Shown in pieces: positions 92 to 48,500 of a stretch of DNA of 64,000 nt; position 1 is the stretch's first letter, and every line of letters begins with the position of its first letter. Location of the stretch: positions 1 through 64,000 of IMG/VR virus record IMGVR_UViG_3300024518_003060, one strand, 5' to 3'. Position numbers and translations under genes: made by a program. A model generated the notes under the pieces. It had not been told where the DNA came from and did no database searches. It saw only the letters and a list, made by a program, of their open reading frames with translations. The stretch comes from a virus.

Positions 92-3000
92 TTAATCATC
101 GAAAGATGCTCCACTATCAGTGATCACAAAGTCGATAGCAATAAACTCAATTGCTCTTGCTGGTTTGACAAAGATCTTAGCGTAAAGAATGTTTCTATCG
201 ATAAGATCTGGCGTTGTTGTCGACTCGTCCAGAATGACCTTATAGTCGGTCAGTCCTAAACCAGACTTTACTCCACCCAAGAATCTCTCGGCTTGGCCAC
301 GGAATTTGTTCCAAGTAATTTGAACGTTTTGGTCAAATAGGAGCGTAGCCGCAATTCTTGAGATTTCACGTTTCAGGAAGATGGTTAGTCTTCGAACGTT
401 AATCCTGTCAAGGGCAGAAGGCGTTGTTTGAAGCGTCTTCTGACCGAAGATGACAATACCCTCCGCTGGGAAGCTTGCGATGGGATTAATATTATTTTCA
501 TACAGTTTGTCGCGCTCTTTTGAAGTGAGGCGTTGGCGTACTCCAATTACGGGAAGACCGCCAGCGTTATTGGCTGAAAGTCCACCGCGAGTAAACCCTG
601 CGGGAGCGAACCAAAGCTCAGAAACTGCCTCAGAGTACGAAAGTGCTCCGATGGCTGCGATTGAGGCTGGTGCCCACAAAGTAGCTCCATTCATGTTGTC
701 GCGAATTTGTACCCAAGGATAATAAGCAGCGCCGTAGCTTGAATTTAGTTTCAAGTTTTGTTGCATATTATCGACGGTACTATCTACAGTGCCGATTCGT
801 TCTTCAATTGTATCGGTTCCCTCTGTATTCGGAACAAACCCACCTTGAGGATCAATAATTGCCAAGGCATCTCCACGACTCTCGGCCATTCTAACAAGTT
901 TGCTATTAAGGCTGTTGTTAGTAATACCGGGAGCAGCAACCAAGTTAAATTCAGTTCTTTCGGAATCTCGAAGTGCATCGATTGCCACGTTGAGTGAATT
1001 ATAAGCATAGTTACCTGTTTCTGATTTGCCGTCCAGCAAAGTATTGCGGAAAGGCTCGCGCTCTGTAATGTCCAAAGCATCGAAACCACCGTGCAAGCAG
1101 GTTGTAAATCTATCAAAACCAGCTTCTAATACATTTTCGTAAGAAGCTGTGGCTGAGTTAGTTGGCACATTCGTGCCGCCTGCGGAAGCTTCGTGATTGT
1201 TATAGGCCAATGAATAATTTCGAGCGTAGACATCATAAACTGCGTTGGTTGAGTAGCCGCCTGAATAGTCCGCCGCATCTCCCGCAGCGATAGAGGAAGA
1301 AACATTTGCGTTTCTAACGTTGTCAAGCGAGAATACCCAAGAATTCTCTGTGGTCTCGTTATCGGCAACATGAGAAGCAATAGTATCAGGCTTTGCTCGA
1401 AGAACGTCAAGAGTGCTCTTGTCAAACTCATTAGAATTATAAGTTGTGTCTGCGCCGAAGAAGGCATCTGTCGGGTCAATAACAAAACCTTCCGAGCTTG
1501 AGATTCTCAAACGAAGTTCGGGGAATGTGGTTTTAGTGGCGAGGGCCGACATAAGCGAACCTGTGTAAGCAACATTCTTATCGTTAGCTGTGTCAGCAGT
1601 ACCCGCATAAGCCAAACCTTTAGTTACAAATGTTCCGGTTGAGGCAATCGCGCCGCCGCCGTTATAAGTAAGCAAAGTGCCACTTGGCGAGGACTGGTAG
1701 CCAATATACTGGGGAGGCCCAAAGACGCCGAATGGGAGCAGGACGGGATTAGTGACCGCATCGCTTACATCAGCAGCGACCTCAACTCTAATGTAATCAG
1801 AATTGTTGGGGAAATCACCGTACTCTTTATATTTTTTAGAATCGTAATCCCAAGTTTCATACTTGTCACCAAGCTTCTTGGCAACATAATTGTCGGAGGC
1901 CGGATTTAGGTTACAGTTGTTGAATTGCTCAATATAAACAGGAGCAGCGTCTGTATCCTTGATGTCGCGAAGGGCAACTGTAAAACTTCCGTATTCGCTT
2001 GTGGGATCGCTTGACTTGCGAAGGTCTTTGATCGAAATCTTAACCTTTCTTTGTACGTCTTCGCGAGTTAGTCGACCAACGAGGCGGAAAAGCTTGGTCA
2101 TGTTCGCAGGGTCGTAACTACTGTAATTCGTTGACAAATCTTGCGAGATAAACCAACCAGTTTTTGCCAAAGCGCCTTGTCCATTGGACATCTTACCATA
2201 ACTGAACTTGAAGTCGCCGCCGACTGCTGTTGTGTTGTCGGGTGTGTTCAAGGGCGCAATCCAGCCGTAAACGTTGCTTTTGCTGGTTTGCGTGAGTTGG
2301 TCATTGACGTAACCCTCGTATGTTTCACCAAGGAAATAGCTTTCAGTGTTTTCAACAATTGTGTCGTTGGTAAGCGTTGGGTTAGTATTAAATCTCTTAC
2401 GAATATAACGAGGAGAGTTAATATTAAAGTCAAAGGAAGTTTCCTCTACAATGGTAGAGCCGTTATTTGTGATGACGGCTTTAAATGTCTTATTGTGGTC
2501 TACTGGGCGCATCATCATACCGGCGCTGGCTGTACTTTTTGTTACTCCATGGCTTCCAAGGGTTGTACCAGACAAAGCAATCGTTCCTTGGTCAAGATAC
2601 CAAACAGCAGCAAGGGTTCCAGAGCCAATAAAACTACCCGTAAAAGAACTTGAGACATTATTGGCAACAAGTATAGAATCAGTTGCGCCTGTAAGTTGCA
2701 TTGTGCCGGATGGATCACCGAGTTGGGCTTCACCAGAAGAACTAAGAGTTATAGAAGAATCTACGAAAGGACAGGTGATTGTCACTAATCCAGAAAAACT
2801 TCCAGAAGTGGCGGTCGCTGTAAATCCGTGCGCTGGGGAATTTGGAGAACTGGTGGTGAGTGTTCCACTGTTGATCGCATTGGCAATGTTAGTGGCAATG
2901 TTATAATTAGTAACGCCGCCGATTGCTGCCGAACCAGTAAAAAAGCCAAGTTTTGAAGCGCCGGAGTGGTCTTTGGCCGCCGAGCCGGTAATGACGACGA

Positions 3001-3538
3001 GTGAGCCGGTTCCAGAGATGCCGCCGCTTAAAGCAATTGAATTTGTAGCGTCGCTGAGTTCCATTACTCCGCTCATTGCAATTTGAGTGGTCATCGTCAA
3101 ATTGCCATGCTCGGCCACGAAAAGGCCAAAAGCGCCGCCGTTTGATGTGGCGGTTGTGCTTGGTGTTGTATTATCTGTTTTCCAGCCAGCGTAAGCTGAT
3201 TCGCCGGTTGCGTCTTTGTTGGTATCGCCAACAAGTCGTATGATTGTTACGGGAGCGTTATTTCTCAGATATGCTTGGGCCGCATATGCAGCGTAAGTTG
3301 GGGCTGTGTAGTTACCATCACGAAAAACATCACCACCTTGTCCACCGGGAATCGGTTTGCCGAAAACCTCAACAAACTGCTCAAATGAGTTGATTTGAGT
3401 CGGTTTTAGGGCTGGGCCTCTTTCGAATCTACCGATGAGGGCAGGGCCGATATCTCCTGGTAGTCCAGGCATCTGAGATCTATCAATTTCGTTGATAAAA
3501 ACTCCAGGTGAAATAAATTTAAATTTTCGTGAAGACAT
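92..3538 (-). CDS. gp18: Contractile tail sheath protein (gp18-like), enlarged
   Basis: This is the sheath subunit that polymerises around the tail tube and contracts on infection. The N-terminus (ISPGVFINEIDRS, then an Ala/Tyr-rich helix ending in a VTIIRLVG strand near residue 100) and the C-terminus (FLKREISRIA, then FDQNVQITWNKF and an 'AIEFIAIDFVI' end strand) follow the phage sheath pattern. At 1148 aa it is far longer than T4 gp18 (659 aa). Much of the excess is a Ser/Gly/Thr-rich insertion at about residues 120-345, after which sheath-like sequence resumes. The ATG at 3538 has GGAGA upstream. The gp15-like gene precedes it and a probable tube gene follows, as in T4. The inserted domain may decorate the outer tail surface (inference). 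Confidence 0.9.
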   Translation of the reverse strand: MSSRKFKFISPGVFINEIDRSQMPGLPGDIGPALIGRFERGPALKPTQINSFEQFVEVFGKPIPGGQGGDVFRDGNYTAPTYAAYAAQAYLRNNAPVTIIRLVGDTNKDATGESAYAGWKTDNTTPSTTATSNGGAFGLFVAEHGNLTMTTQIAMSGVMELSDATNSIALSGGISGTGSLVVITGSAAKDHSGASKLGFFTGSAAIGGVTNYNIATNIANAINSGTLTTSSPNSPAHGFTATATSGSFSGLVTITCPFVDSSITLSSSGEAQLGDPSGTMQLTGATDSILVANNVSSSFTGSFIGSGTLAAVWYLDQGTIALSGTTLGSHGVTKSTASAGMMMRPVDHNKTFKAVITNNGSTIVEETSFDFNINSPRYIRKRFNTNPTLTNDTIVENTESYFLGETYEGYVNDQLTQTSKSNVYGWIAPLNTPDNTTAVGGDFKFSYGKMSNGQGALAKTGWFISQDLSTNYSSYDPANMTKLFRLVGRLTREDVQRKVKISIKDLRKSSDPTSEYGSFTVALRDIKDTDAAPVYIEQFNNCNLNPASDNYVAKKLGDKYETWDYDSKKYKEYGDFPNNSDYIRVEVAADVSDAVTNPVLLPFGVFGPPQYIGYQSSPSGTLLTYNGGGAIASTGTFVTKGLAYAGTADTANDKNVAYTGSLMSALATKTTFPELRLRISSSEGFVIDPTDAFFGADTTYNSNEFDKSTLDVLRAKPDTIASHVADNETTENSWVFSLDNVRNANVSSSIAAGDAADYSGGYSTNAVYDVYARNYSLAYNNHEASAGGTNVPTNSATASYENVLEAGFDRFTTCLHGGFDALDITEREPFRNTLLDGKSETGNYAYNSLNVAIDALRDSERTEFNLVAAPGITNNSLNSKLVRMAESRGDALAIIDPQGGFVPNTEGTDTIEERIGTVDSTVDNMQQNLKLNSSYGAAYYPWVQIRDNMNGATLWAPASIAAIGALSYSEAVSELWFAPAGFTRGGLSANNAGGLPVIGVRQRLTSKERDKLYENNINPIASFPAEGIVIFGQKTLQTTPSALDRINVRRLTIFLKREISRIAATLLFDQNVQITWNKFRGQAERFLGGVKSGLGLTDYKVILDESTTTPDLIDRNILYAKIFVKPARAIEFIAIDFVITDSGASFDD

Positions 3539-5015: not shown

Positions 5016-6281
5016 TTACCCCGTATAAATCAAATTTGGAATCTTTACTTGAAGCTTGTTGACCGCATCAGCCACTTCAGCATCAGCAGCAGCAATCTTA
5101 GCGTATGTAAGTTCATCGAAGACCTTTTTAAGCTCTTCTCTCAGTTTCTCTTGTTCTGTAGCCGCTTGTGTAAGCAGCGCTGGGCCATTTAAGGTTACAC
5201 TCGTGTTAGGAATCGGTATTGTGGTGAATTTAGACCTAATGTTGCCCAGCATCTCTTTACAGAGAGCCAAACCGAATCTTCTAATCCACTGTTTTCCGAT
5301 AGAATTGATCTTTTGATAAGGAATGTTTTCAAACGGAAGCGTATTAATATTGTTAACGCCGTCTGTACCCGTATTCATACCGTCATCTGCCCAAGGAGTC
5401 TTAGAATCCACATAAAACTGAATCCAGAACTTCTTGGGACCAACAATAGTAATCTTTGGATAGATCCTTATCTTGTTATTTTTTACCTCGTATGAATAGT
5501 GGCTATTTCTTGTATAAATGGCATCCTCAAAAGCCATTGCCTGAGCTTTATTTTCCCAAGTGGGAACAAGCTGAAATGTGGAACTGTCTGAGAACTGGCC
5601 ATAGCTAGATAAGTTGCCCACTACGTTCAAGCCGCCATAATAACCATAGAACCTCCACATAGCCTGTGGAGTCTTGTAATAAACTTTGGTTATATTGATT
5701 CGGTTGTCTCCTACCTTGCCGTAATAAGGCAAACTGGAGGTATTGGCTGCCGAAGAGGAAACAATGGCTTGTAGATCGTAATCTTGCTCTCCTTCGCGAA
5801 CATCGAAACTTGCTGAATATATCTGTGTTGTCCCTCCGAAACCTGCTTCTGTGGAAAGTCCATGAGCCATTCTTCTGGCGTAGGTAAACATATATTTTGG
5901 AAATTTTAATGCGATGTCCGAACCGGAGAGGTTTTGACCAGCTTGCAATTGTCCGTCTTCGTTGAACGAGCCAGTTTCTGCTCCAAAAAGGTCAGTTAGA
6001 CTATTTTTGGCTTGGTGCAGGTTGAGAAGATAAGAATACTCCAGGCAGGACTCTTGATAAGCTGAATAGACCTGTTCTTTGGTAAGCTCAATATCTAATA
6101 CGTCGCCGCCCAGTTTTTTATAGGTATATGCGACTTGATCAGACGCTCCTGACAAGAAGTAGTTATCCTCAGTATAAACAGAGAAGGGGAAGGCTGCGTC
6201 TTCGGCTTCGCTTGGTAAACTCGCTGAAGGGAGTATTACAGCGCTTGTCTTAGAAGCAGGTCTCAGTGTAGGTAAAGCCAT
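5016..6281 (-). CDS. gp13: Neck protein (gp13-like)
   Basis: 421 aa. Two blocks match T4 gp13 as I recall it. Near residues 50-90 there is 'YKKLGGDVLDIELTKEQVY', as in T4 'RRLGAPIINVELTPDQIY'. Near the C-terminus a helix 'WIRRFGLALCKEMLGNIR' leads to 'SVTLNGPALLTQAATEQEKL', matching T4 'WVKDWATALAKELNGQIL' and 'VTIDGQRMIEEARLEKEAL'. It is longer than T4 gp13 (309 aa), mainly through an N-terminal leader and a central beta-rich part. The ATG at 6281 has GAGGAGA upstream. The gp14 and gp15 homologues that follow support the assignment. Its expected role is sealing the filled head and joining the tail. Confidence 0.75.
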   Translation of the reverse strand: MALPTLRPASKTSAVILPSASLPSEAEDAAFPFSVYTEDNYFLSGASDQVAYTYKKLGGDVLDIELTKEQVYSAYQESCLEYSYLLNLHQAKNSLTDLFGAETGSFNEDGQLQAGQNLSGSDIALKFPKYMFTYARRMAHGLSTEAGFGGTTQIYSASFDVREGEQDYDLQAIVSSSAANTSSLPYYGKVGDNRINITKVYYKTPQAMWRFYGYYGGLNVVGNLSSYGQFSDSSTFQLVPTWENKAQAMAFEDAIYTRNSHYSYEVKNNKIRIYPKITIVGPKKFWIQFYVDSKTPWADDGMNTGTDGVNNINTLPFENIPYQKINSIGKQWIRRFGLALCKEMLGNIRSKFTTIPIPNTSVTLNGPALLTQAATEQEKLREELKKVFDELTYAKIAAADAEVADAVNKLQVKIPNLIYTG

Positions 6282-6337: not shown

Positions 6338-6622
6338 TTATTTGGTTGATTTCTTTTTAATGCCCTTTTGGTATGCTGGCTTGGGGACGGCCTTTTCGCT
6401 TGTTTTGGTCTTCGGGGGCGCTTTTAAAGTGGGCGCCTGTATAACCTCTTCTTCTACGACAGGTTCTGCGACAGGTTCTGCGACAGGTTCTGCGACAGGT
6501 TCTGCGACAGGTTCTGCGACAGGTTCTTCGGTTACGTCTGTAGTTTTAGGTGATGCTGGGTGAGCTTTGTATTTTGCTCCGAACTTTTGCGGATTCGCAA
6601 TTAATCTTCTTTTCTTTCCCAT
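6338..6622 (-). CDS. Small Lys-rich protein with EPVA repeats, unknown function
   Basis: 94 aa from an ATG at 6622 with AAGGAGA upstream. The ends are strongly basic (MGKKRRL at the start, KKKSTK at the end). The centre is acidic and low-complexity, with Glu-Pro-Val-Ala repeated about five times, encoded by a 12-bp tandem repeat. No enzyme motif is visible. Its position between clpX and the neck genes suggests late expression. Basic ends around an extended Pro-containing linker would suit an internal or DNA-associated virion protein or a linker, but this is inference. The repeat could vary in copy number between relatives. Confidence 0.6.
   Translation of the reverse strand: MGKKRRLIANPQKFGAKYKAHPASPKTTDVTEEPVAEPVAEPVAEPVAEPVAEPVVEEEVIQAPTLKAPPKTKTSEKAVPKPAYQKGIKKKSTK
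6459..6530 (-). repeat. 12-bp tandem repeat (6 units) coding for EPVA
   Basis: The plus-strand unit acaggttctgcg is repeated five times exactly (6459-6518), with a sixth copy carrying one change (6519-6530). On the coding strand each unit gives Glu-Pro-Val-Ala in part-shifted register. The unit is in frame, so copy-number change would not break the gene. Confidence 0.9.
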
Positions 6623-6734: not shown

Positions 6735-6755
6735 GAAAAAGAAAGTCAGACTTTC
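6735..6755 (-). terminator. Probable intrinsic terminator after clpX
   Basis: The near-perfect palindrome gaaagtcagactttc at 6741-6755 starts 5 nt after the clpX stop. On the minus strand it is followed by a short T-rich run (TTTTTC). The stem is short (5-7 bp, small loop), so termination may be partial. Confidence 0.45.
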
Positions 6756-6760
6756 GCTGC

Positions 6761-8038
6761 CTAGTTGATGCCTGATATTTCTGAGAGGATTAGTTGGGCA
6801 CCGTCATCAGCTTCAACATGATGCTTCTTAACAGATATTTTGTCTGTTCCCAAGTTTGGTAGCTTAAACATCACTTCGAGAAGTAATGCTTCTAAAATAG
6901 AACGTAAGCCGCGTGCGCCGCATTCAAGTTTGATAGCTTTGTTTGCTATGGCTCTGAGAGAAGCTGGACTAAAGTCAATCTTAATGTCATCTATTTTAAA
7001 CAATTTTTGGTATTGTTTGATGATGGCGTCTCTAGGTGTCTTTAATATATCCACTAACATGTCTTCGCTAAGTTCGGTGAGTGTAGTGATTATTGGGATT
7101 CTACCGATAAGCTCTGGAATCAGACCAAAAGCTTCTAGATCAGTGGTTACAACTTTGGCTAGAACATCGCCGGTCGAAGGTTCCTCATCTCTTGTTTTCA
7201 CTACTGCTCCAAACCCAAGAGTTTTAACGTTGCTTTGCTTTCTTTCTCTTTCGGAGATGATATCTGCTAACTCGACAAAAGCGCCGCCGCAAATAAATAA
7301 AATATTCTTAGTGTCGATGGGTGTGCCTTCTTTACCCTTTACTTTGGGTGGGGCGTCTACTACTGTACCTTCGAGTATCTTTAAGAGCGCTTGTTGCACA
7401 CCTTCTCCGCTAACGTCACGAGCAGTTCCGCCACGCGAGACCTTTGAGGCAATCTTATCCATTTCGTCGATATATATGATGCCCTTTTGCGCTCGCTGGA
7501 TACTGTTTCCTGCGGCATCTAAGAGTCTAGCAAGAGCAACTTCCACATCCTCTCCAATATAACCTGCCTCTGTAAGACTTGTGGCGTCAACCGATGCGAA
7601 GGGGACTTCTAAGACCCTTGCAAGGGATTGAGCAAGCAAAGTTTTGCCTGTACCCGTTGGGCCAATCAGCAATACATTACTTTTCTTAATCTCCACATCA
7701 TCAGTGTCTTCCACGCTCATTATTCGCTTGAAGTGGTTATATACCGCCACTGATAGGACTTTTTTAGCTCGCTCTTGCCCTACAACCGTTTCATCTAGTT
7801 TTGCTTTAATTTCTGTTGGGGATAAAAGGTTATAATCTTCTTCAGCAGGTTCAAGAACTTTTGCGATTCGCCCCTCTTTGGCTGCTGATTTGGCAATAAT
7901 TTCGTGACAAAGTATTATGCACTCATCGCAAATATTGGCAAGCACCGAAAGGCCAGTTATAATCTTTTTTACTTCGTCGCTGGTTTTTCCACAAAAAGAG
8001 CAACTAATATAAGAACGTCTATCCACCAAATCACTCAT
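6761..8038 (-). CDS. clpX: ATP-dependent unfoldase ClpX, full length
   Basis: 425 aa, the usual length of bacterial ClpX. All landmarks are present: an N-terminal C4 zinc domain (Cys13, 16, 37, 40), Walker A GPTGTGKT (126-133), a pore loop GYIG (159-162), Walker B IIYIDE (187-192), a 'KSN..KTLGFG' loop with LGF at 274-276, and a sensor-2 'ECGARGLRS' near the C-terminus. ClpX is an AAA+ ring that unfolds tagged proteins and feeds them to ClpP. The LGF tripeptide corresponds to the IGF loop that docks on ClpP, so host ClpP could be a partner (inference). No clpP is in the window. The ATG at 8038 follows CAGGAGGGTG. The gene stands alone between two terminator-like hairpins inside the head-neck region. 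Full-length ClpX is unusual in a phage. Confidence 0.95.
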
Positions 8039-8097
8039 AAATCACCCTCCTGGATCTCACGACAGCAATGTTGTATAACACTTGTCGGTCTCTATAA

Positions 8098-8106
8098 ATA
8101 AGTAGT
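8098..8106 (-). promoter_or_regulatory. ACTACTTAT element upstream of clpX
   Basis: The minus strand reads GACTACTTATTTATAG, which contains ACTACTTAT about 60 nt before the clpX ATG. The same 9-mer occurs at 58 nt upstream of the gene that starts at 8711. It sits after the hairpin at 8162-8183, a logical place for a promoter. Confidence 0.3.
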
Positions 8107-8149
8107 CGTCAACAATGTTCAGAAATATAGTATTTTGAGGTTAAAAGGT

Positions 8150-8185
8150 TTTAAGAAAGCACCTCGCCCCAAATGGGGCGAGGAA
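8150..8185 (-). terminator. Intrinsic terminator after the 166-aa virion protein gene
   Basis: A perfect 9-bp stem (cctcgcccc / ggggcgagg, 8162-8183) with a 4-nt loop lies 28 nt after the stop codon at 8211. On the minus strand the hairpin is followed by TGCTTTCTT, a moderately T-rich tail. The stem is strong and GC-rich, the tail weaker than ideal. Confidence 0.65.
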
Positions 8186-8210: not shown

Positions 8211-8711
8211 TTAATCCGTGAAAGTAGCAATGCTTGCTGGATTCGCGTGTGTGGTGATCAGGTTGGCCTGAGTGGTCCAAAACCCTGCCTCGTTACAAGT
8301 AACCGTAACAGTATCGCCTGCGTCTCCACCAGAAGTGGCGCCGGTTTTATGCATAAAGACCTTATTCAATCCAGAAGCCTTGAGGACGACCTGGACCAGA
8401 AACTGATCGGCTGTAGTACTGAGTACAACCGCTTTGCCATAAAACTTATCGGCGGTTTGCGACAGTATGTGGTGATTGGCAGCGGCTCCTGCGATCAACA
8501 TGAAGGTATAGTTTAGACCAACCTCTGCGTCTGGAAGCGTGATATCATGCGCTGAACCGTGTGTCCAGTGGATAAGCGCTCCCGAATCGTTAGCAGTTAA
8601 AGTTTTTGCTGCGCTAACAGCCAACAACTGCCTTTTTAGAAATTTCAATTGATTTTTATTTTCATTGATTAGGCTTTTAATTCTAGCCCAACCTACTCTT
8701 TTTGTTCCCAT
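8211..8711 (-). CDS. Virion protein, possibly capsid decoration
   Basis: 166 aa from an ATG at 8711 with AGGGAGGG upstream. A Lys-rich helical leader (about residues 1-32) precedes a beta-rich domain starting 'LTANDSGALIHW', then 'DITLPDAEVGLNYTFMLIAGA', and ending in short strands with Gly-Gly turns. This 'tell-tale' LTAxDSG / ITLP / GLxYTF pattern is common in small structural proteins encoded near phage capsid genes. It directly follows the major capsid gene but is separated from it by a terminator and has its own promoter-like element. A head decoration role is therefore likely but inferred. A fibre-like role is the alternative. Confidence 0.6.
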   Translation of the reverse strand: MGTKRVGWARIKSLINENKNQLKFLKRQLLAVSAAKTLTANDSGALIHWTHGSAHDITLPDAEVGLNYTFMLIAGAAANHHILSQTADKFYGKAVVLSTTADQFLVQVVLKASGLNKVFMHKTGATSGGDAGDTVTVTCNEAGFWTTQANLITTHANPASIATFTD

Positions 8712-8884: not shown

Positions 8885-10684
8885 TTAGCTAGTCGCACCT
8901 GCTTCACCGAGCATACCGCGAACAATGACAAGACCGTACATATCGGGTCGAACCATCTTCTTGGCATAACGGGTCATGACACCCTTACGAGGCACGAAGT
9001 CTTCCACACCAAAGATGGTGGGAGTAACTTGCAGTGGAACATAAGGAGAGTAAACATAACCACTCTCAAGGAAGCTGCTTCCTTTACGACCTACGAGAAC
9101 AAGATTTCGTGGGAAGTAAGGATCAACATAGACGTCGTAACGCTTACTCAAAGAACCAACTTGTTGGGTTCCAGCAGTACCTTTGCTATCGTCGTGAGTG
9201 ACGTTAGCGCGGAATCCGCTTGTGAACTCAAGAATGTTGGCAACCTCCGGGGAAGTTACAACAAAGTTGGCGCCGCCTCTCAGAGTCTTACGATGGATCT
9301 GAGCGGACACATCATTGATGGTCTCGCCAAGAGTCTCGTACCACTCAGAAACAGTACCAGTAAAGTCAGGAGCAGCAGACGCTGCACCTTTCTCATTACC
9401 AGTCTTCTTATCTACAAACAAACCGGGGGAACGTGACCAGTAGTAAGTAGCGCCTGTAGAACCTTTAACAAGGTCTGTGAGGATCTCGCGATCAATTTCA
9501 AGAGCAATTTGCTCAGAAAGGATCGAAGTAAGCTCAACCTCGGCATCCAAGTTATGGTATGCGTTGAGGTCTTGACCAAGTTCTGGAGTCCACTTTGCTT
9601 TGAGCTTTTTAGTCATTGCGGTGACTGACACCGAATCGACCTTCAAGTTAATCTCGGGGATGTTTGACGTGTCTTCCAAGCCCCAGTCATCTTGACCAAC
9701 AACAGCGCCGATAGCATTGCCACTTGACGCTTTACCGGCAGCACCAAAGTTATCAACAATTGCGAAGCTTGCTGTGGTTTGAGGGCCTTTAAGTACTTCA
9801 GCACAAACATTAGCGGATACACCGTCAGCAGCAACAACAACCAAGACATCAGCACTACCGCGATCTGCGGAAGCACCGATTGAAGAACTAAATTGTGTCA
9901 AACGACGAAGGTGATGCACCGAAGAACTATTCGAAATCTTCAAAGCTGTGAGGTCATCGAAATTCATTCCAGTTCCATTAGTAGCACCAGTAAGGTGACT
10001 TTTTGGAATAGTACCAATAGCAAAGTTAGTAGTACCAGACGTAAACGCAGGATCATACTGTAGAAGGCTATAAACTTTATCCAAGTGAGCCTGTGTGATA
10101 CCAGATTGGTTAATGCCGCCGTCAAATGTAGCATCTTTATCTGCTCCATAAGAACCAGAATAAAGAATGGTCAAATGAGTTGACGTGTGTGACGCTGAAG
10201 GTGAGGAATAACCATTAGTTAGGTTATAAAATTGACCGGCGTTTGTTCCAACATCGCCAGTTAAATCGACACCACCAGTAACCGCCTGACCAACAACATC
10301 GCCACCGTAAAGTGACTTGCCAGCGCCGGGTCCAAGACCATCACGTTGGAACGTGAAATCAAGGAAGAAGATGAGACCACTGGGTAGACTCATCGGTTGA
10401 ACACTAACGAGATCGTTAGCGATCAAAGAACCAAAAACGCGGCGAACGATGGGGAATGCAACGGATGCAAAACCTTCAACGTCACCACTGCTCATGGCAG
10501 TAGCAGCTTCGCGAAGAAGCTCTTTGGCTTGGTTTTCAAGCAATCGAGCCATAGTCGTGCGACTATGATCGGCTTCCAAACCCTCAAGAAGACCTGTTTT
10601 CTCCCATTTATTTAGTAGAGCAGCGCCTTCCTTACTCATATCGCGTGAAACGATACCTTCTGTAAGTTTTTGTAAAATGGACAT
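8885..10684 (-). CDS. gp23: Major capsid protein (gp23-like)
   Basis: 599 aa HK97-fold capsid subunit of the T4 type. The N-terminus has 'RTTMARLLENQAKELL' followed by 'FASVAFPIVRRVFGSLIANDLVSVQPMSLPSGLIFFLDF', a hallmark block of gp23-like proteins. The C-terminus has 'YVYSPYVPLQVTPT' and 'KGVMTRYAKKMVRPDMYGLV'. In T4 the gp21 protease removes an N-terminal piece after an (L/I)-x-E site. Here LLE (32-34) and GLE (35-37) are candidate sites, implying a propeptide of about 34-37 aa, shorter than in T4 (inference). The ATG at 10684 follows AAAGGAG. The scaffold gene lies upstream and a strong terminator downstream. Confidence 0.95.
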   Translation of the reverse strand: MSILQKLTEGIVSRDMSKEGAALLNKWEKTGLLEGLEADHSRTTMARLLENQAKELLREAATAMSSGDVEGFASVAFPIVRRVFGSLIANDLVSVQPMSLPSGLIFFLDFTFQRDGLGPGAGKSLYGGDVVGQAVTGGVDLTGDVGTNAGQFYNLTNGYSSPSASHTSTHLTILYSGSYGADKDATFDGGINQSGITQAHLDKVYSLLQYDPAFTSGTTNFAIGTIPKSHLTGATNGTGMNFDDLTALKISNSSSVHHLRRLTQFSSSIGASADRGSADVLVVVAADGVSANVCAEVLKGPQTTASFAIVDNFGAAGKASSGNAIGAVVGQDDWGLEDTSNIPEINLKVDSVSVTAMTKKLKAKWTPELGQDLNAYHNLDAEVELTSILSEQIALEIDREILTDLVKGSTGATYYWSRSPGLFVDKKTGNEKGAASAAPDFTGTVSEWYETLGETINDVSAQIHRKTLRGGANFVVTSPEVANILEFTSGFRANVTHDDSKGTAGTQQVGSLSKRYDVYVDPYFPRNLVLVGRKGSSFLESGYVYSPYVPLQVTPTIFGVEDFVPRKGVMTRYAKKMVRPDMYGLVIVRGMLGEAGATS

Positions 10685-12155: not shown

Positions 12156-12383
12156 TTAGGGTTCTTTATAGGTGTTCCGTTGACGATGAAGTTTTTCGAT
12201 CACTTTTCTTCTTCTTCGCCTTTCTTTTCTGCGCTTATCGGAGGGTTTTTCATAATAACGATTTTCTAAGACCCTTTCTATAATGCGCTCTTTTTTTACT
12301 TTTTTGTTGAAGCGCCTGATGAGTCTATCGAGAGTTTCGTCTCTAAACTTTGGTCTGACTTCTGCTCTCACTGCTCTAGACAT
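12156..12383 (-). CDS. rpsU: Phage-encoded ribosomal protein bS21
   Basis: 75 aa, close to the 71 aa of E. coli RpsU. It keeps the family pattern: 'LDRLIRRFNKKVKKE' (bS21 'ALRRFKR..EK'), 'NRYYEKPSDKRRK' (bS21 'REFYEKPTTERKR'), then a basic helical tail. bS21 sits in the small subunit near the anti-Shine-Dalgarno region and affects translation initiation. Phage copies are known and are thought to exchange into host ribosomes and favour phage mRNAs; that role here is inferred. The ATG at 12383 follows TTAGGAG. It lies between the 136-aa gene and the scaffold gene, so it would be made with the head proteins. Confidence 0.88.
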   Translation of the reverse strand: MSRAVRAEVRPKFRDETLDRLIRRFNKKVKKERIIERVLENRYYEKPSDKRRKERRRRRKVIEKLHRQRNTYKEP

Positions 12384-26582: not shown

Positions 26583-29500
26583 TTAGATTTCTTGAACAAA
26601 AGCATACCCATTTTGCTTATCGATTGTTATTTGATTGTCTACGCAATCTTTGAGAGAATCGAGGTGGGAGACTAGAATAATTGTTTTAAAGTAGTTTTTA
26701 ATAATATCAAAGATTGAAACAAGTCCATCCATATTTTCAGCGTCTAATGCTGTTCCTGGCTCGTCCAAAATAAAAATATCGGACTTTGGCAAGCTTGACA
26801 CTGAAAGAAGGGCAAGTCTTATTGCCATCGCTGCTATCGTCTTTTCTGCGCCGGAACCAAGATCAAGCGGTCTTGGATCATATTTTGGATGCTGAATAAA
26901 GATGTTAAGCTTCCTGTTATCGGCCTCAAAAAAGATATTAAAGTCAACAACATTGGCCAAAATCTTGGCTATTTCAGTATTAATCACGGGAAGCTGCTTT
27001 TTGATGATGTCATAAGCAATTCCGTTTGAGTGGGCACAGTGCATAAACAAATCATAAGCAGTATATTCTTCATTAAGTGCAGAAAGTTCTTCTTTTTGCT
27101 CTTTAAGGGAGCGAATTTTCTCTTCAAGCGAGCCATGCTCTTTGTATAATCCCAAGAGTTTTTGCTGGCACTTGTCACTTTTGGTCTGCTTTGTGTCTAT
27201 TTGCTCGCTAAGAACTGTAATATGATTTTGAAGTTGTTCTTTATTTTCAATGGCTTCTTTGTTTAGGTCATATTCTTCTTGTTGTTTATATAGGTCTTCC
27301 AACTCTTTTTCAAGTAGCAGTAGATCGTTTTTACACCCTTTTTGCTCTGAATCGAGCTTGAAGGTGTCTTTTTCGGTGTCATTCTTTTTCTCAAGAACTG
27401 CTTCATATTTCTCAAGATAAGAGGCAACCTTCTCTTGGTCAAGATTATCAAGTTCATTGTTGGCTTTTATCTGATTTCTGCCAATTTCTTGAACAAGTTG
27501 AATTAAGCTGGGTAATTCTTGTTTTGCTGCGGAAGCATCCTTAATAAACTTGCAGCTTAGAAACTTTTCTCCGCATGGAACTTCATCCAATAAAGTAATC
27601 TTTTTTTCTGTTCGTTCTTTGAGTTTTTGAGTGTCATCGAGCTTCTTTTCGGTCTCTTCTAAAATGACAAGTTTCTCATCAATTTCAGATTTTTTGTTCT
27701 TGATGTCCCCTATATCAAAGACACCCAACAAGTCCTCAATTTTATCCAAAACTTCCCTATTTTCGACAAGTTTTACATCATAATCTTGTGAGGTGTTCTC
27801 AAGCTCTTCTTTGCGTTGTTCCTCTTCCTTGATTTTGGTTAAAATGCTGTCGATATTGATCATCTGAGTTGGGATTTCAGAGAATGTTTTTTCTGATTCT
27901 TCCTTTTCTCGAACCAATCCTTGAAGCTCTTTGTCTAATACTTCGCAAGTGGTCTTTTCTGAGATGGTTTCATTTTCAAGATACATTAACTGCTTTTCAG
28001 TTTCATAGATCTCGTCATTAAACTCTCTTCCCTCAAGCCTTTTCAGGGCACCTCTCAAATCGGTGGCGTCTTCTTTGGCAAGCTTAAACTTTTTATCAAA
28101 TATCTCAAGATCTAAGAATTTTGCCAGGATTTCCTTTCTTTTGGTTGACCCCTCATTAATAAACTGTAAAGCTCCAAGTTGAGAACTTAGCGAAGTGATC
28201 AAAAAATCCTCTAAGGAACCGAAATGCTTACGAATTATGCTGTCGGTGTCGTTTCGCGTGAGACCATTTAAACTTGAGGTTTCGCCCGTGTCGCAATCTT
28301 CAACGCTGAATTCTACATCAGTTTTTGCTTCAAGAGTCTCTTCGCCTTTGAGCTTTTTAACGTACTTGTCGGATGTTCTTTCGATGGTGAACTTTTTGTT
28401 ACCAATTGAAATTACTGCTCTGCCCATACAAGAATCTTTTGTCTGATTAATGATGTTTAGATTCTTTCTTTCGTTCTTGGATGTACTGTTAAATATAGTA
28501 TAGAGTAGTCCATCGATTACGCTTGACTTGCCAGAATAGTTTTTACCAAACAAGCCGACGACACCACCGAATTTATTAAAATTAATTTTGTTTCCCTCTC
28601 CGTAATTAAAGAGATTGTCCCACTCAAAGCTTTCTAGCTTCCAGTTGACATTTCTGTGTATTTCTTCGTTTTCTTCAATTTGAGAGTTGTACTTCTTGTT
28701 GAGTGAGAAGATGCGTTCAAGCATTTTTTCAGTGGGTTGATAGTCTTTAAGGTAATCTTTGATTAAGCTCTCTTGTACTGCTGAATCTCTTAGATTGTCC
28801 GACCTAATTCCATCTACCAAATTTAAGTCGCCGCTGCGTCTTCCTGCGGCATTATTGAGAAACGTTACGCGCTCTGGTTTGAAGCGATGCTTTGCTGCTT
28901 CAATAGCCTTCTTCATGTTATGTAAGGGAATGTTAGTTTTGGAAACTAAACGAACTCTTGCCCCAAGCGGGACTTCTATCTTTGATGGAATTCGGCCAGT
29001 CTTTGTTAAGACAATAGAAATAAAAGGCTTTGGGTTTTCAATCGTAATATGTTTTACGGTAAACTTGTCCCTATCCTTGATGTCCCAAATCAAATATCCT
29101 TTGTCATTGGTCTCACCAAAGTTCTGTTGGATTGTACTGCCGCAGTATCGTATTCGGCCTTCTTTATCCAACGATTGGTTCGTTTTGTGTATGTCACCTA
29201 AGAAGGCGAAGTCGTGTCCTTCAAAGATTGAAAGTTCGTCTTCTCCGCTTTCCATAATCCATCCCAAATCGGTTTGACAATTTGATATAGCTCCGTGATA
29301 AACAGCCACGTTAATCCTATCGGAAGTAGAAGGGCGAGACCAATTCCCACGATCAAAGACACTAAGTACATTAATAGTAATTTCTTTATCAAGGTTCACC
29401 TCACCAGACTTTTTAAGAAGATGTAGATTGGGTAGTTTTAGTGCTTTAACAATTGGAGTTATAGCGTCCTGCCTACTACTATTCTTTAGATTACCGTCAT

Positions 29501-29741
29501 GGTTCCCTAATATTATATAGGTAGGAGCAACCCCCGAAAGACCTGTTAAGAATTCAGAACACAATTGAACGTACTCTGGTGAGATAAAAGTTTTCGAGTG
29601 GGCGATGTCCCCACAGTGAACAATATAATCTACTTTTTCTTTCTTGAGACTTTCAAAAAGTTTTTTAAAGACCTCTCTGTACTCGTTATGGTACTTTAAA
29701 TTACGAATATGTGTGTCGCTAATGTGTGCTATTCTAGCCAT
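26583..29741 (-). CDS. SbcD-SbcC (Mre11-Rad50, gp47-gp46) single-chain fusion nuclease
   Basis: 1052 aa. Residues 1-230 are a calcineurin-type nuclease with Mre11 motifs: Asp9/His11, 'HCGDIAH' (42-48), 'GNHD' (79-82), 'VYHG' (His149) and 'GDIH' (182-185). A linker (about 240-365) leads to a Rad50/SbcC ATPase: Walker A 'GKNYSGKS' (399-406), long coiled coils, signature 'LGSGAEK' (961-967), Walker B 'DIFILDE' (988-994) and 'LVSHLD' near 1026. The hook is Cys723-x6-Cys730 rather than CxxC. In T4, gp46 and gp47 are separate proteins that resect ends for recombination-dependent replication; here one gene encodes both. It overlaps the primase-like gene by 8 nt. Confidence 0.9.
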   Translation of the reverse strand: MARIAHISDTHIRNLKYHNEYREVFKKLFESLKKEKVDYIVHCGDIAHSKTFISPEYVQLCSEFLTGLSGVAPTYIILGNHDGNLKNSSRQDAITPIVKALKLPNLHLLKKSGEVNLDKEITINVLSVFDRGNWSRPSTSDRINVAVYHGAISNCQTDLGWIMESGEDELSIFEGHDFAFLGDIHKTNQSLDKEGRIRYCGSTIQQNFGETNDKGYLIWDIKDRDKFTVKHITIENPKPFISIVLTKTGRIPSKIEVPLGARVRLVSKTNIPLHNMKKAIEAAKHRFKPERVTFLNNAAGRRSGDLNLVDGIRSDNLRDSAVQESLIKDYLKDYQPTEKMLERIFSLNKKYNSQIEENEEIHRNVNWKLESFEWDNLFNYGEGNKINFNKFGGVVGLFGKNYSGKSSVIDGLLYTIFNSTSKNERKNLNIINQTKDSCMGRAVISIGNKKFTIERTSDKYVKKLKGEETLEAKTDVEFSVEDCDTGETSSLNGLTRNDTDSIIRKHFGSLEDFLITSLSSQLGALQFINEGSTKRKEILAKFLDLEIFDKKFKLAKEDATDLRGALKRLEGREFNDEIYETEKQLMYLENETISEKTTCEVLDKELQGLVREKEESEKTFSEIPTQMINIDSILTKIKEEEQRKEELENTSQDYDVKLVENREVLDKIEDLLGVFDIGDIKNKKSEIDEKLVILEETEKKLDDTQKLKERTEKKITLLDEVPCGEKFLSCKFIKDASAAKQELPSLIQLVQEIGRNQIKANNELDNLDQEKVASYLEKYEAVLEKKNDTEKDTFKLDSEQKGCKNDLLLLEKELEDLYKQQEEYDLNKEAIENKEQLQNHITVLSEQIDTKQTKSDKCQQKLLGLYKEHGSLEEKIRSLKEQKEELSALNEEYTAYDLFMHCAHSNGIAYDIIKKQLPVINTEIAKILANVVDFNIFFEADNRKLNIFIQHPKYDPRPLDLGSGAEKTIAAMAIRLALLSVSSLPKSDIFILDEPGTALDAENMDGLVSIFDIIKNYFKTIILVSHLDSLKDCVDNQITIDKQNGYAFVQEI

Positions 29742-41464: not shown

Positions 41465-42504
41465 TATTTGTCACCTGGATCATTTGCTATTTGGTTGTTA
41501 TAAATATTAACATGGGCCAATTCTTGCTTTTCTTCTGGACATTTAAACGTCTTATCTGTAAAGATATTTTTAACTTTGTCCTTTTTATGTTTCATCGCCT
41601 CACAATAATATGTGTCATCTATTTGGTTATCCAGCTTTAAATTGAAGAAGTATTCAACATTAGAAGAGTTGGTTTCTTTATCCTCTTCTGTAAAATAAAG
41701 CTTCTTGAGTTTTGTTTTGGGGACATTTTCCTCGTCGGTATTTGTGTCCGTGACCAATTCAGTAACGATTTCATATACTTCAATGTCAAAATTTTCCTTT
41801 TTAAACAGGGTGTTTCCCTCTTCGAGTTTAATAAACGCACGTTTCTTATCATACGTCATCGCTGTCCCGTCGTCAAAAGAAAAGAAAGAGTCAAACAGTT
41901 CATCATCTTGAGAAATGTTTTTTACTTGTGGTTTGGCGCCTATATCAAAAAGTGTAATTTCATTTTGAACAATGACTTCTACTTGCGGAATAAAATCAGC
42001 AGATCCGCTTTTATTATTGAAATATCCTGAGCCGCTGACGCCTATCATGCTTGCTGATAAAATAGAACCTGTAATCATCTGAAGGTTGTAATATGGAGCC
42101 TTATTGGTATTTGGACCAGAATTGCCCAGCGGTGACTGGAGCATATATTGGTTGGTCGGAGACTCAATGACCTCAATGTTATAAGAGGGATCTGAAATCT
42201 TTGGCTTGATGCCTGGAAAGATCTCGTCTAAAATATTTGGATTCTTAGTAAATACTGTGGTCTCGGCCCCTTCAAACTTGGTTTGTCCCTCAAATCGAGG
42301 AGTCTCATCTAAGATACGAACCTCAATATCATTTTGAAGTTCTTCCACTTGCGAGGCGCCAACAGCACATCTACTGTCATATACGATGTCATCATCAAAA
42401 AAAGCATAATAAGCTGGGTTAAACTTGCCAAGGCTTATAAGATACTTGCCATAAGGGGTTATCTTAATCTTAAAAACTTCTTCTTTTGGATCTAAAAATC
42501 TCAT
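41464..42504 (-). CDS. Virion structural protein (346 aa)
   Basis: 346 aa starting 'MRFLDPKEEVFKIKITPYGKYLISLGKFNPAYYAFFDDDIVYDS'. This start block recurs in myovirus structural proteins as far as I recall. A central 'FDSFFSFDDGTAMTYDKKRAF' strand region and a C-terminal Lys/Glu-rich part with two Cys ('YYCEAMKHKK', 'FKCPEEKQEL') follow. The ATG overlaps the stop of the 3047-aa gene (ATGA), and its own end overlaps the 1219-aa gene by 1 nt, so the three are co-translated. It is probably a baseplate or adapter component; its exact role is unknown. Confidence 0.62.
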   Translation of the reverse strand: MRFLDPKEEVFKIKITPYGKYLISLGKFNPAYYAFFDDDIVYDSRCAVGASQVEELQNDIEVRILDETPRFEGQTKFEGAETTVFTKNPNILDEIFPGIKPKISDPSYNIEVIESPTNQYMLQSPLGNSGPNTNKAPYYNLQMITGSILSASMIGVSGSGYFNNKSGSADFIPQVEVIVQNEITLFDIGAKPQVKNISQDDELFDSFFSFDDGTAMTYDKKRAFIKLEEGNTLFKKENFDIEVYEIVTELVTDTNTDEENVPKTKLKKLYFTEEDKETNSSNVEYFFNLKLDNQIDDTYYCEAMKHKKDKVKNIFTDKTFKCPEEKQELAHVNIYNNQIANDPGDK

Positions 42505-45500
42505 CTCTTCTTGTCCTTATTTGTATCGGCGGCAGCAATAATAGCAAGAGTATCCGATAAATTAATACTTAATGGCAATTGTTCTCCGGTCTCAGGAGAT
42601 ATTGGAAGATTAACCCTTCCCATCGAAGGGGCAGACAACTCTTGAGTCTTACCGGCTCGGGGCGATAGCGGCGGCGTTTCCAGTCGATTGGCCGGTAGTG
42701 TGGTTTCGCGGTTCAGTGTGACCGTGGAACGATTGTCTATTTCTGTTCCCGGTGTTAATGTCTTTCTAGAAAAAGTGGGAGTTACGGGTGGGGGTACAAA
42801 TTTTGGAAACGATTTTATTGGGATTGCTTTACCAAAATTAACCTTACAGTCGATTTTCGCCAATTCTACCAAACTAAAGTAATCGAAGGGCCAGTTGAAA
42901 CTATAATCTGGAATTGACGTAATTTCTGCGCCTGCTCGTCCAGAAGCAAAGTTAAATTTAAATCGCTTATCGTCTCGCGAGTCTGCTGTTTTCGCATAGT
43001 AATTAAATGCTCCGCGTTGTTTCGCTTTAAAAACGCTCCATTGGATGTTCTCTGGTAGAGATTCGAGCATTGACGTGCCGTTCTCTGGAGAAGGTCTGAA
43101 AATATTTATCGGAAGACTGGCTCTGCTTTTTTGCATCGATGTGCCAAGATCCGGTGGTAAATTCTGCCAGATATTTGCCAAATCCTGCTGAGATAGTGTA
43201 GCAGAAAACTCAAAAATAAATATGGCGAATGGAGCAATGGTTTTGTTTGTAATGAAATCCATCTTCGGTGGCAAAATAAATTTCTTCATTTTCTCTACCA
43301 TGTTAATAATATCTTGTGATGGCATGTGTTTTGCGCCTGTTGCTTTAACGAACGCCTCTATACCGGAATTGATGCCGCCTGTCTCTATTATTTTTTCAGC
43401 AATATCAATGGTCTTTCTATCAATGGCAAATCTTGTAAAATTAGCTCCTTCTCTGGTTGGATCGCCTAAAACATGAGGAATGGCGACGATTGCCTCAAAG
43501 ATTTCTTTTTGTTGGGCAACTTCGCCAAGGCGTACTGGTGTCTTTTTAAAGCCCATTGCGTCGGCTAAAGATTTAGCACTTGTACTGTCGCTATCTTGAA
43601 CTTGTATAAAAATGCCCTCGGAACTTGCTGTTGGCAGTGTCCCAAACTGGTGCCACATTCCTTGAGCAACCGCTCCAGAACCAATAAGTGGCAGTGAATA
43701 AAGCGAATCTTTAAAATTCAAAATAGGAGTTTCCCACTTTGGTTGAATTATCATTTGACTTGACTGTCTTGAGGTGTCCACTTCTGTGGGGTTTCCAAAA
43801 GCATCAAACTTCACGCCATATTGTTTTGCCACTTGAAGATAGTTTAGGGTTGCTGAGATTTCCATTTGTGAATCTGTATAATTACCAGTGACAAAGCTGC
43901 CGCCGCTTTTAATTTGGCCTGCGGTACATACCCTACCAAAACTTGAACTTATCAGAGGCACAATTTCGTCAATTGTAAATTTATCAGTTCTTGATGGAAC
44001 AAACTTAAGCTCTACTTCCGCATATCCATCATAATACGGCGGCGTGTGTGAAGAATAAGAAGCAGAAGAGTGTCTCTTCGTGTTACCAGAGTTTGTTATA
44101 TTGAGCATAACGTCGCGCATTAAATAATCATCTGAATATACAGGCGGCCCGAACGATGAACCATAGACATCTATACTGGCTGTTCTCTGATACATAGCAA
44201 GATTTGGGGGATTCACAATGTATGAGGCAGAAGTTAGTGAAGCTCTATCACCGAAAGGAGATCTTGAAAAATCTTTAATTTGTTTGACGCTCGACGCCTT
44301 TCCATTGGAAATGGAAACTTTCATAACATATTCTTCGTTTTCCACAAAGTTGCCAAAGTCGCCGTCGTCGTCCGGTAAAGATGCGATAGTCGCTAATCGA
44401 CCGGCGGGTTTGAAAAAATCAATTGTGGCAGCTAGAAAGTTATTCATTGCCAATTTGTATGTGCTCCGCGCTGACCCAAGCAGCGAACAAGTTAAATCAA
44501 ATTGGGCGACAGGATGGGGTTCTTGGTCATAAATAGTTACCCTGGCCAATTCTTCTTCTGGCCTTAGTATCGCTTCGAAGGGAACTCTAAAACCAAATGG
44601 ATTGTGTTCGTCGAGATCAGAGGAGCCAATTCGAGGTATATCTTTCATAAAAGTATTTTCAGCGACTTGGCCAGCGGCGCCTGAGATTTTCATCGGAGAG
44701 GTAAGAATCGGATAGTCTACGGCCATACCAGATTTAATACTGTTGTAAAGAACGCCTGGGGCAAAAAGACACTGATAGAGGGGCCTTGAGATCATAAGGG
44801 CGCCTCGGTCATTTGATACGCCAATTTTGCCCGCCAAAGATCGCCAGTCCTTAAAATATTCATTATAGTCTTCATAAAACATTTTTGCTAACTTGATCGT
44901 ATGAAGTGCCGGATAAAGATCGTTATACGGTAAGAATTTTAAAATCGCATCGCACTCGAACTCAAGACTTGTTGCTTTGTTTTCGCTTTTAAGATCTTTT
45001 CCTACTATTTTAAAAGCCTTCATAAAATCTGAGTGTAGGTAATTGATAATAAAGCCATCTTCTGCCTCGCTATTAAAGATTGCTCCCGTGAGGGAGAGCG
45101 AAGCAGTATTTACTGCTAAGAAATTGCCACCTTTTTGATTTACATAATAATCCATATGCTCAGAGATTCTAAATTCGGGCAGGATACCGAAACCTTTACC
45201 CGCTCTCATGGCCTCGTCGACATAATCATTGTAAGTATCATAAAAGGGGTTTATATTCTGTGCGTTTCTTGAGGCAAAGGAGCTAGAGATTCCCGCCTCC
45301 CATTTGGTATCTCCGACAATATAATATTTAAGAGAGCCGCCCAAGATTGAAGGTTCGATGATTCTTCTATTGTAAAGCGGAGCGAGAGGGCCGAATTCAC
45401 GGGTGATTCCATCAGAATCCACAAACGAGTAAGGCCCAGTAAATTGTGCATAGTCGTTTTGCAAAATGCCGTCTTGACCTTTTCCGTTTGTTGCAAGTGA

Positions 45501-48500
45501 TACAGTTGTAGTGTCTCGCGGAGTACTTTGGTTATCCAATACAAAACTAGATGATGTAAAGCCTAATCTTCCGTCCAAAGGCCAAATGCTGGCCGCTGTT
45601 TGTAAATTTATGTTTGGAACATACGGAAGAAAGTGAGTGGAGTCAGTTTTGTTGCCCTCGTCAGATCTTGTTTGGCGGTCATCTCGCCAAAAGTTATTTC
45701 TAAAGGCGGTTCTTTTGCGTGTATCTGCCAAGTAAGCGAACTTTTCTCTTGGATGGATTGATTCTTGGACGGTTATATTATTAACTTTGTTAATTGGGTT
45801 TGTCTCTTGCGAAATAGACTCATCTGTAATAAGGGTCGCCAATGTATTATAAGCCAACTTTCTTTCTGGATAGTTGGTAAGAAACTCAATCGACGGGTGA
45901 ATGTTCAAATCCAGGCCATTTCCTACCTTCTGGGAGAATTTTACAAAATTGTTGAGATAAGATTGTTCGAATACAACTCTTGTTTCTCCGCCTCCACCAG
46001 TTGATGTTTGGATATCCAAGTCAAAAGTGATTGGTTTGTGTTTTGATACGACAGCCGGTTCAATAGATGAAGTTATTCCCCTTCCAAGCTTAACTCGGCC
46101 TCTTGCGTCAGCAGGTAAACGGCTTTGAGTAAGGAAGCTGATTCTATTTTGGCTTCTCAGTTTTCTTGTTATTGGGTGAGCGTCTTTTCTATAGAGTTTC
46201 CAGTTTGCTCCGCCCCAAGGGCCTTGTCGATGGAGAAGAAGAGAATTTAGTGTCGGTGACAGTTGTTCGTCACCAAGATCCCAAAGTTTAATAAAGCCGC
46301 CTTCTGCGGTGTCCGTATCCATGGTGCCGTTTGTGGTTCCGTCTGGTGCGCCCCAGTTTATATAATTAAGAAATGATAAATCAGTAGGATAACCCAAAGT
46401 ATTAGAACTTGCGGTGATAGGGTCATAAATGTTCGTATTCATTCCTGCGAAGTCTGTCGGCTGGTAGGCTTTACTTGCGCCATCGGCGTATGCTTTTGTC
46501 GCACCAAACGTCTGACTGGACCCATCGCGATATGAAACAAAGTCACTCGAACTTATGAAGGTAAGATCAGTAGAGGCAAAGCTGGCGTTTGAGAAGTTTC
46601 GCTTTTCAAACCCATACAAAGCTGAACCAGTGTAGCCGCTTATAAGGCTTGAGGTAATCCAAGCGTATTGTGCGTCCGTTTGCGGTATTTGATGACGAAC
46701 ATAATAGTTGTCATGGGAAGCTGTATTGTTTACAATACCATCTGCGCCATTTTCATCAGTTGAATATTTAAGTTGGCTTCTCGTGTTTCTGTGATTCTTT
46801 TGGTACGAGCCTGTGCTGTCGTAACCTTCTTCGGAAATAGAGCCGCTGCCGCCGGGATAGGTTTTGCCCGCTTGTTCATAAGATTCTTCTCTAAACCAGT
46901 CACTATAATAGCCAAACTTCAAACAATGATTCGTGAGAAGTTCTTGTAGCGGAAGTCTAACATCAAGATTTCGCCAAGGCATTGCATTATAGACGCTATA
47001 TTCTCCAGAATAAACGTCCAAGAAACCTTCGCTCATTGTTGAGGGGTCACCAGGAGCAGAAAATCTATTTACAAAAATGAACTTATTGCTTCCAGTTAGA
47101 GTACGATTCGGTAACTCATATTCGTATGCTCCAGAAAAATAGTAAACAACATTGCTTGCTGTCAATAAAGTTCCACCAGCGTCTACAAGAAATCTATTGT
47201 TTTCGCGGCGGCCTGTAGTGGTGACTATTTCATAATCTTTATAATAGTTGCCAAGGGCTTGTGAGCCAGTAGAAGACTGAATATTCCTAATGTTTACAGG
47301 GCGTTTGGCTGTTTCGTCTCTATAATAGGTTGCCCTTGGCAGATCAGCATTAAAAGTTAATGCGTCATCGTGTGCTGGATCAAATACAGTAAACTGGCGG
47401 AAACTGCTGCTTACTCTGTAACCTTCGGCACGGTCTAGTATATTGTCGCTTCCTGTATTAATGTTCTGATGTCGATATTGTTTGCCTCCGACGTGTCTTT
47501 CGGTAAATGGACCTTGAGCCGGAATCTCTTTATCATATCCATAAGAGTCGTTATGAACGTTTACAATAGAGGAGAACTCGAAATTTCCTCCTCCGGTTGT
47601 GCCAGATACGACATTGAAGGGTGCGGCATAAGAACCAACGGAAGAACTCAGATATGAATCCTCGGGTTCTCCGTCTACTTCAAGGAAGTCAACGCTTGTA
47701 TTTACTGTTTTCTTTAAGTCTAAAGCGTTGTCGTCTGTACAAACAAAGCTTGCGCTCTCTGGATTTCTGATATCTAGTCCCGATTTTTCAGTGAGGAACT
47801 GCCTAAGGAGAGGATTTATCAAGTCAAGATTTTTGTTTCTTGTGAAGTTTGTTCCACCCTTTAGAACTGGAGTTAGCTCAACCTTATACTTATATGGTCT
47901 CGCAAAGTTCCTAATTGCATAAGTTGATCCTTCGTAAGATCCTGCGGCGCCACTTAAGTTAATAACGGATGCATTATTCAGGTTGTTTTCGACGTCTAAG
48001 ATCGTTTGTCTGTTTGAGTCGACACTTGTATTGCCGGAACCGGAAACGTCCCTTTCTGCTCGCTTTTGCCACCAATTACAACTTTCATCTTGAGTCGTTG
48101 GAATCGGGGCATGTCCGGTTCTATAATTGTAAAGGCCCTCGCGGATACCCAAAATATGTCCTGTCGGGTCAGTTTGCCTAAATTCCATTGTTGGGAACTT
48201 GTGATCGTATTTGTTACGGTTAAAAATATATTCTTCAATTATCGGACGAATCAAATTCTCGGCATCAAGAGTGACGGCAGAAGCCGGGATTAAATTGGCG
48301 AGCATTATATTCAAGCCTGAGTCAAGCCATCTGTAATAATCAATGTATTTTTCAACTTTTGGTGTGTTGGAAACATTTTCAAAGAAAAGTTGTCTCAGTT
48401 TGCTTAGGCTTTTGTACTCAGTTCTAAATTCGTTTACGGGATCACCAACCATAGAACCAAAATCAGCGACAGTGCTGAAGAATTTGAGCATTTCTTCGCT

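Follow-up and report, generated by a model that had tools for sequence, protein, structure and literature searches.

A phage ClpX without the RKH motif, encoded in a variable site between the capsid and head-tail adaptor genes of a distant T4-like myovirus

Genes encoding ClpX are already known from jumbo phages, described carriers including phage G (gp258), Atu_ph07 (gp2), Phosso, the Lak phages and PA5oct/MIJ3 (PMC6102473, PMC7824862), and a role as a translocase or in virion assembly has been suggested for the corresponding proteins (PMC7824862). The phrase 'phage-encoded ClpX' had no match in the collection of papers searched. In Pseudomonas phage MIJ3 (L166), clpX is directly beside rpsU, the gene for ribosomal protein bS21, with clpS and ibpB nearby. 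The properties of the enzyme that matter here come from E. coli. The RKH loop is described as a feature found only in ClpX-family enzymes, where it matters for both substrate recognition and ATPase control, and its mutation inhibits degradation of an ssrA-tagged substrate by ClpXP (PMC7112951). Changes in the length of the ClpP-docking loop lower the affinity for ClpP, and the I268L substitution also harms docking (PMC7112951). A second point of comparison is provided by Bacteroidetes phages encoding bS21, in which the bS21 gene lies beside those for the capsid, prohead protease, portal and terminase; Clp proteases have been reported among bS21 neighbours in published phages (PMC9723584).

The window analysed here, a stretch of 64,000 nucleotides, is part of a virus record of 71,357 bp, itself a genome fragment. 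The record comes from a distant T4-like myovirus with a gp23-type capsid protein, head maturation protease, portal, terminase, sheath and baseplate wedges, which also encodes SbcCD, a primase and a RuvC-like resolvase. Its clpX lies between the major capsid and head-tail adaptor genes (Table 1), so the head-neck location given in the initial annotation stands. The phage shares with the Bacteroidetes phages (PMC9723584) the placement of bS21 by the head genes, but its bS21 is on the structural-gene strand and clpX is inserted between capsid and adaptor. Annotated jumbo-phage clpX genes, in contrast, are found near topoisomerase, clpP or nucleotide-metabolism genes; their products are likewise phage-borne and full-length, and none groups with the window ClpX. 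The nearest isolates, Flavobacterium phage immuto and Microcystis phage Mel-JY01, are both distant (43-45% identity for the terminase and ~29% for the adaptor), and both were absent among the ClpX matches listed in the phage search. What is new here is the combination of a ClpX without RKH, a cargo site in the head block and no clpP detected in the 71-kb fragment. Elsewhere in the window, the tail sheath protein (92-3538) is unusually long at 1148 aa, with conserved sheath domains only at residues ~776-1146, and the tail/baseplate region holds frames of 3047 aa (42501-51644) and 2032 aa (55402-61500). One 1052-aa frame (26583-29741) is SbcD-like over residues 1-265 and SbcC-like over residues 181-1046, and is an apparent SbcD-SbcC fusion.

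Table 1. Features of the clpX locus (positions in the window)
Feature	Position	Strand	Basis
Head-tail adaptor	5016..6281	-	profile
94-aa basic protein, recurrent in the capsid-adaptor interval	6338..6622	-	homology
Weak hairpin and T-rich run past the clpX stop	6739..6756	-	by eye, unflagged by scan
clpX, 425 aa	6761..8038	-	ORF and curated profiles
Sensor-2 motif GARGLR	6902..6919	-	motif reading, alignment
LGF-type ClpP-docking loop TLGFGAV, with ~3 residues more than E. coli ahead of LGF	7202..7222	-	alignment
Shortened RKH-loop region, RKH motif absent	7310..7363	-	alignment, motif survey
Walker B IYIDEMDK	7454..7477	-	motif reading
Pore-1 loop AGYIG	7553..7567	-	motif reading
Walker A GPTGTGKT	7640..7663	-	motif reading
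C4 zinc-binding domain of ClpX, spanning residues 13-50, with cysteines at 13, 16, 37 and 40	7889..8002	-	Pfam, alignment
clpX leader with TATTTATA and a strong AGGAGG Shine-Dalgarno	8039..8159	-	sequence reading, L003 comparison
Terminator-like hairpin, belonging to the cargo gene upstream and not to clpX	8162..8183	-	hairpin scan, relatives
166-aa protein of a family often encoded in this interval in relatives	8211..8711	-	homology
Major capsid protein, T4 gp23 family	8885..10684	-	profiles
Phage ribosomal protein bS21	12156..12383	-	profile

The reading frame of clpX is intact on its own strand (the plus-strand reading of the same interval, in the same frame, holds stops throughout), and its product scores above the curated NCBI equivalog cut-offs, with 523.7 bits against NF003745 (cut-off 359) and 492.6 bits against TIGR00382 (cut-off 370.75). 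The Pfam matches to zf-C4_ClpX (52.3 bits), AAA_2 (107.8) and ClpB_D2-small (34.3) are all above cut-off; PHROGs places the protein in phrog_4339, a family annotated as of unknown function. The nearest solved structures are bacterial ClpX, with ~50% identity along the chain, and Foldseek matches it to ClpX in ClpXP complexes. Domain order and the zinc, Walker, pore-1, sensor-2 and docking motifs are those of the cellular structures from E. coli, Neisseria and Pseudomonas. All four cysteines of the zinc domain, both Walker motifs, the pore-1 GYxG and the sensor-2 GAR are there, together with an RDVSGEG pore-2 loop and a GLIPELIGR box. The initial annotation had listed zinc domain, Walker A and B, GYIG, sensor 2 and LGF at normal spacing, which is correct for the catalytic motifs and inexact for the LGF loop, longer by ~3 residues. 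It had also named missing catalytic residues as an argument against function; none is missing, and the protein conforms to a 20-sequence ClpX alignment at its invariant columns. The same gene occurs in the same place in the related records L003 and L004, with 96-97% protein identity to the window, L004 being the same as L003 over the part it holds in a coding comparison. A further record, L002, has an identical clpX and may be the same virus as the window record. Comparison with L003 (96% protein identity) gave a dN of 0.019, a dS of 0.214 and a dN/dS of 0.087, hence purifying selection. Equivalog matches, motifs and this ratio uphold the earlier claim of a full-length intact protein, and the gene most likely encodes a working phage ClpX, a predicted hexameric AAA+ unfoldase with ATPase activity.

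What the initial annotation did not see is that the RKH motif is absent. The E. coli segment PPQGGRKHPQQEFLQVDT is matched by a window segment four residues shorter and without RKH. This motif is typical of bacterial ClpX and is not required by the curated ClpX models, and the window protein, lacking it, is accordingly classed as a variant of ClpX. RKH is kept in 80/80 of the nearest cellular ClpX and in 45/45 from two separate phylum-wide draws, i.e. in all 125 cellular proteins examined. An exact RKH was found in 63 of 88 phage ClpX, most of the others having RKN, RKS or similar variants. Phage proteins without any RKH motif are those of the window line (L002-L004, hence 4/4 records of this virus lineage), L039/L041, L043/L051, SCTP-2 and MIJ3, so that the motif is missing on at least four other branches. 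These lie apart in the tree, several of them being long and of uncertain placement. It could be that the phage simply gained an ordinary ClpX whose function is unchanged, the loss of RKH being drift of little consequence and the gene serving to raise ClpX dosage. The wide occurrence of phage clpX and the several phage proteins with RKN, RKS or no motif would fit, but the presence of RKH in every cellular and most phage ClpX makes this explanation decidedly improbable. The loss rather argues for a changed substrate range. In an AlphaFold model with a mean pLDDT of 67, in which docking geometry is unusable, strands at residues 226-229 and 239-242 may perhaps correspond to the remaining stem of the loop.

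The IGF-type docking loop carries LGF, which occurs naturally in several bacterial ClpX of the alignment, and the following Val is also kept; the lengthening of the loop relative to E. coli, and the harm done there by I268L, count against the explanation favoured below. Use of ClpP is thus plausible, as a prediction from sequence. As to partners, the initial annotation proposed a search for clpP elsewhere in the genome, which could be answered for the 71,357-bp fragment: it holds no match to ClpP (PF00574), a gene that could be outside it, and none to SspB or ClpS (PF04386, PF02617). Among 50 clpX-bearing virus records, 31 also have a ClpP-family match, so other phages commonly encode the two together. 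Since L041, L043 and L051, all without RKH, have clpP in the same record, loss of the motif is not coupled to the absence of clpP.

The explanation that we favour, and to which we would give about an even chance, is that the protein serves the phage as a late unfoldase, working with borrowed host ClpP on an altered choice of substrates and no longer reading ssrA tags. Judging from gene position, its expression would be late, like that of the capsid genes. The retained parts would hydrolyse ATP, pull polypeptides through the pore and dock ClpP, while the RKH loop, used by cellular ClpX for ssrA-tagged and related substrates, has been lost. With no clpP in the 71-kb fragment, its rings would presumably use that of the host, and non-ssrA substrates would be sent to degradation, for example host or phage proteins brought in via the zinc domain or phage adaptors.

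The setting of the gene bears on its main rival, a chaperone acting independently of ClpP. The capsid-adaptor interval is spanned in 132 relatives, of which only L002 and L003 carry clpX within it and 130 do not (in L004, clpX adjoins the adaptor gene), which answers the earlier suggestion to examine homologous positions in related phages. No AAA_2 match above cut-off was found in 40 relative records either, and clpX as a core head gene can be ruled out. The interval is a variable cargo site, of 94 to 2,779 nt, which often holds a protein like the 166-aa one and a small basic protein. The 166-aa gene, whose product we guess to be a head decoration protein, is absent from L003. The 94-aa basic protein has six tandem EPVA-type repeats and length-variable relatives in this interval of ~40 phage contigs. 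Other occupants, each seen once, are a 344-aa tubulin/FtsZ-like GTPase in L182 (PF00091, 31.1 bits, just below the 33-bit cut-off) and, identified by eye, a probable homing endonuclease of 500 aa (L306) and a lipoprotein-type protein of 314 aa that is von Willebrand-like (L185). In four relatives without clpX (L260, L257, L255 and L252), the cargo gene is followed directly by its GC-rich terminator, and this in turn by the leader of the basic-protein gene; the window has clpX, together with a leader of its own, exactly between that terminator and the basic-protein leader. Homology with L003 resumes at window position 8159, which sets the clpX unit at ~8159-6740. The gene is an inserted unit, as had been proposed, and its empty site is visible in relatives.

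Cellular ClpX disassembles and remodels Mu transposase, and a phage ClpX might similarly remodel or disassemble phage proteins in head or neck assembly, its ClpP docking being vestigial. The place of clpX between capsid and adaptor genes, the lack of clpP in the 71-kb record and the altered length of the docking loop are consistent with such a chaperone, as is the virion-assembly or translocase role suggested for jumbo-phage ClpX (PMC7824862). However, the LGF motif is retained, and in a variable cargo site empty of clpX in nearly all relatives, position says little about a role in assembly. We regard this chaperone as possible rather than probable.

The boundary signals are not those first described. 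Terminator-like hairpins had been taken to mark the unit, but the upstream hairpin belongs to the cargo gene ahead of clpX and has an equivalent there in relatives without clpX. A promoter-like element of its own had also been claimed; nine sigma-70-like sites were found where 12.1 were expected, none of them in the clpX leader, and a dedicated sigma-70 promoter is not above chance. The T4-type late motif TATAAATA, with 5 occurrences where 3.3 are expected, is not enriched. In reverse complement, as TATTTATA, it is on the sense strand in the leaders of both clpX and the 94-aa gene, the latter leader being conserved in relatives without clpX. With one mismatch allowed, CTATTTATA is mildly enriched across the window (31 against 20.2) and is a candidate promoter only. 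From 8132 to 8014, window and L003 are identical at 118 of 119 nt, whereas the coding part is 94% identical; this near-identical leader suggests conserved regulation, the alternative being local exchange. The leader RNA has no unusual fold (z = +0.61).

As to origin, the window protein and that of L003 form a long isolated pair in two trees, the stem in the first tree measuring ~1.1 changes per site, and neither tree gave a stable close sister beyond L003. The separate branch sets the protein apart from cellular ClpX, to which it is ~50-55% identical. The initial annotation had warned that near-identity within one host genus would indicate recent capture or an assembly error; no sampled host branch is close, so the gene is not a recent host capture, and its presence in the same place in L003 and L004 rules out such an error too. 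Either the gene came from an unsampled source or it evolved fast. In a Pseudomonadota draw, one genome has a second, divergent clpX (G128:C50:3811-5025, 468 bits) beside a normal one. The distance from cellular ClpX also weighs on a further explanation, in which subunits from the phage enter the ClpX rings of the host, or compete with them for ClpP, leaving host ClpXP unable to clear ssrA-tagged or other substrates. A ClpX core conserved nearly throughout, combined with a lost ssrA-recognition loop, is what would be expected of a subunit that poisons specificity. Nevertheless, mixed rings are uncertain at this level of identity, and interference of this kind seems unlikely.

A broader and rather doubtful proposition is that these proteins form a recurrent class of phage ClpX, in which the RKH loop has been discarded repeatedly and independently, turning host ClpXP away from ssrA-tagged proteins and towards phage-chosen targets late in infection. 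The window phage lineage offers a clean view of an insertion site before and after the arrival of clpX. A natural, selected ClpX without RKH, together with the other phage lines that lack the motif, provides ready variants for substrate-steering tests, and such proteins could show how the specificity of ClpX can change.
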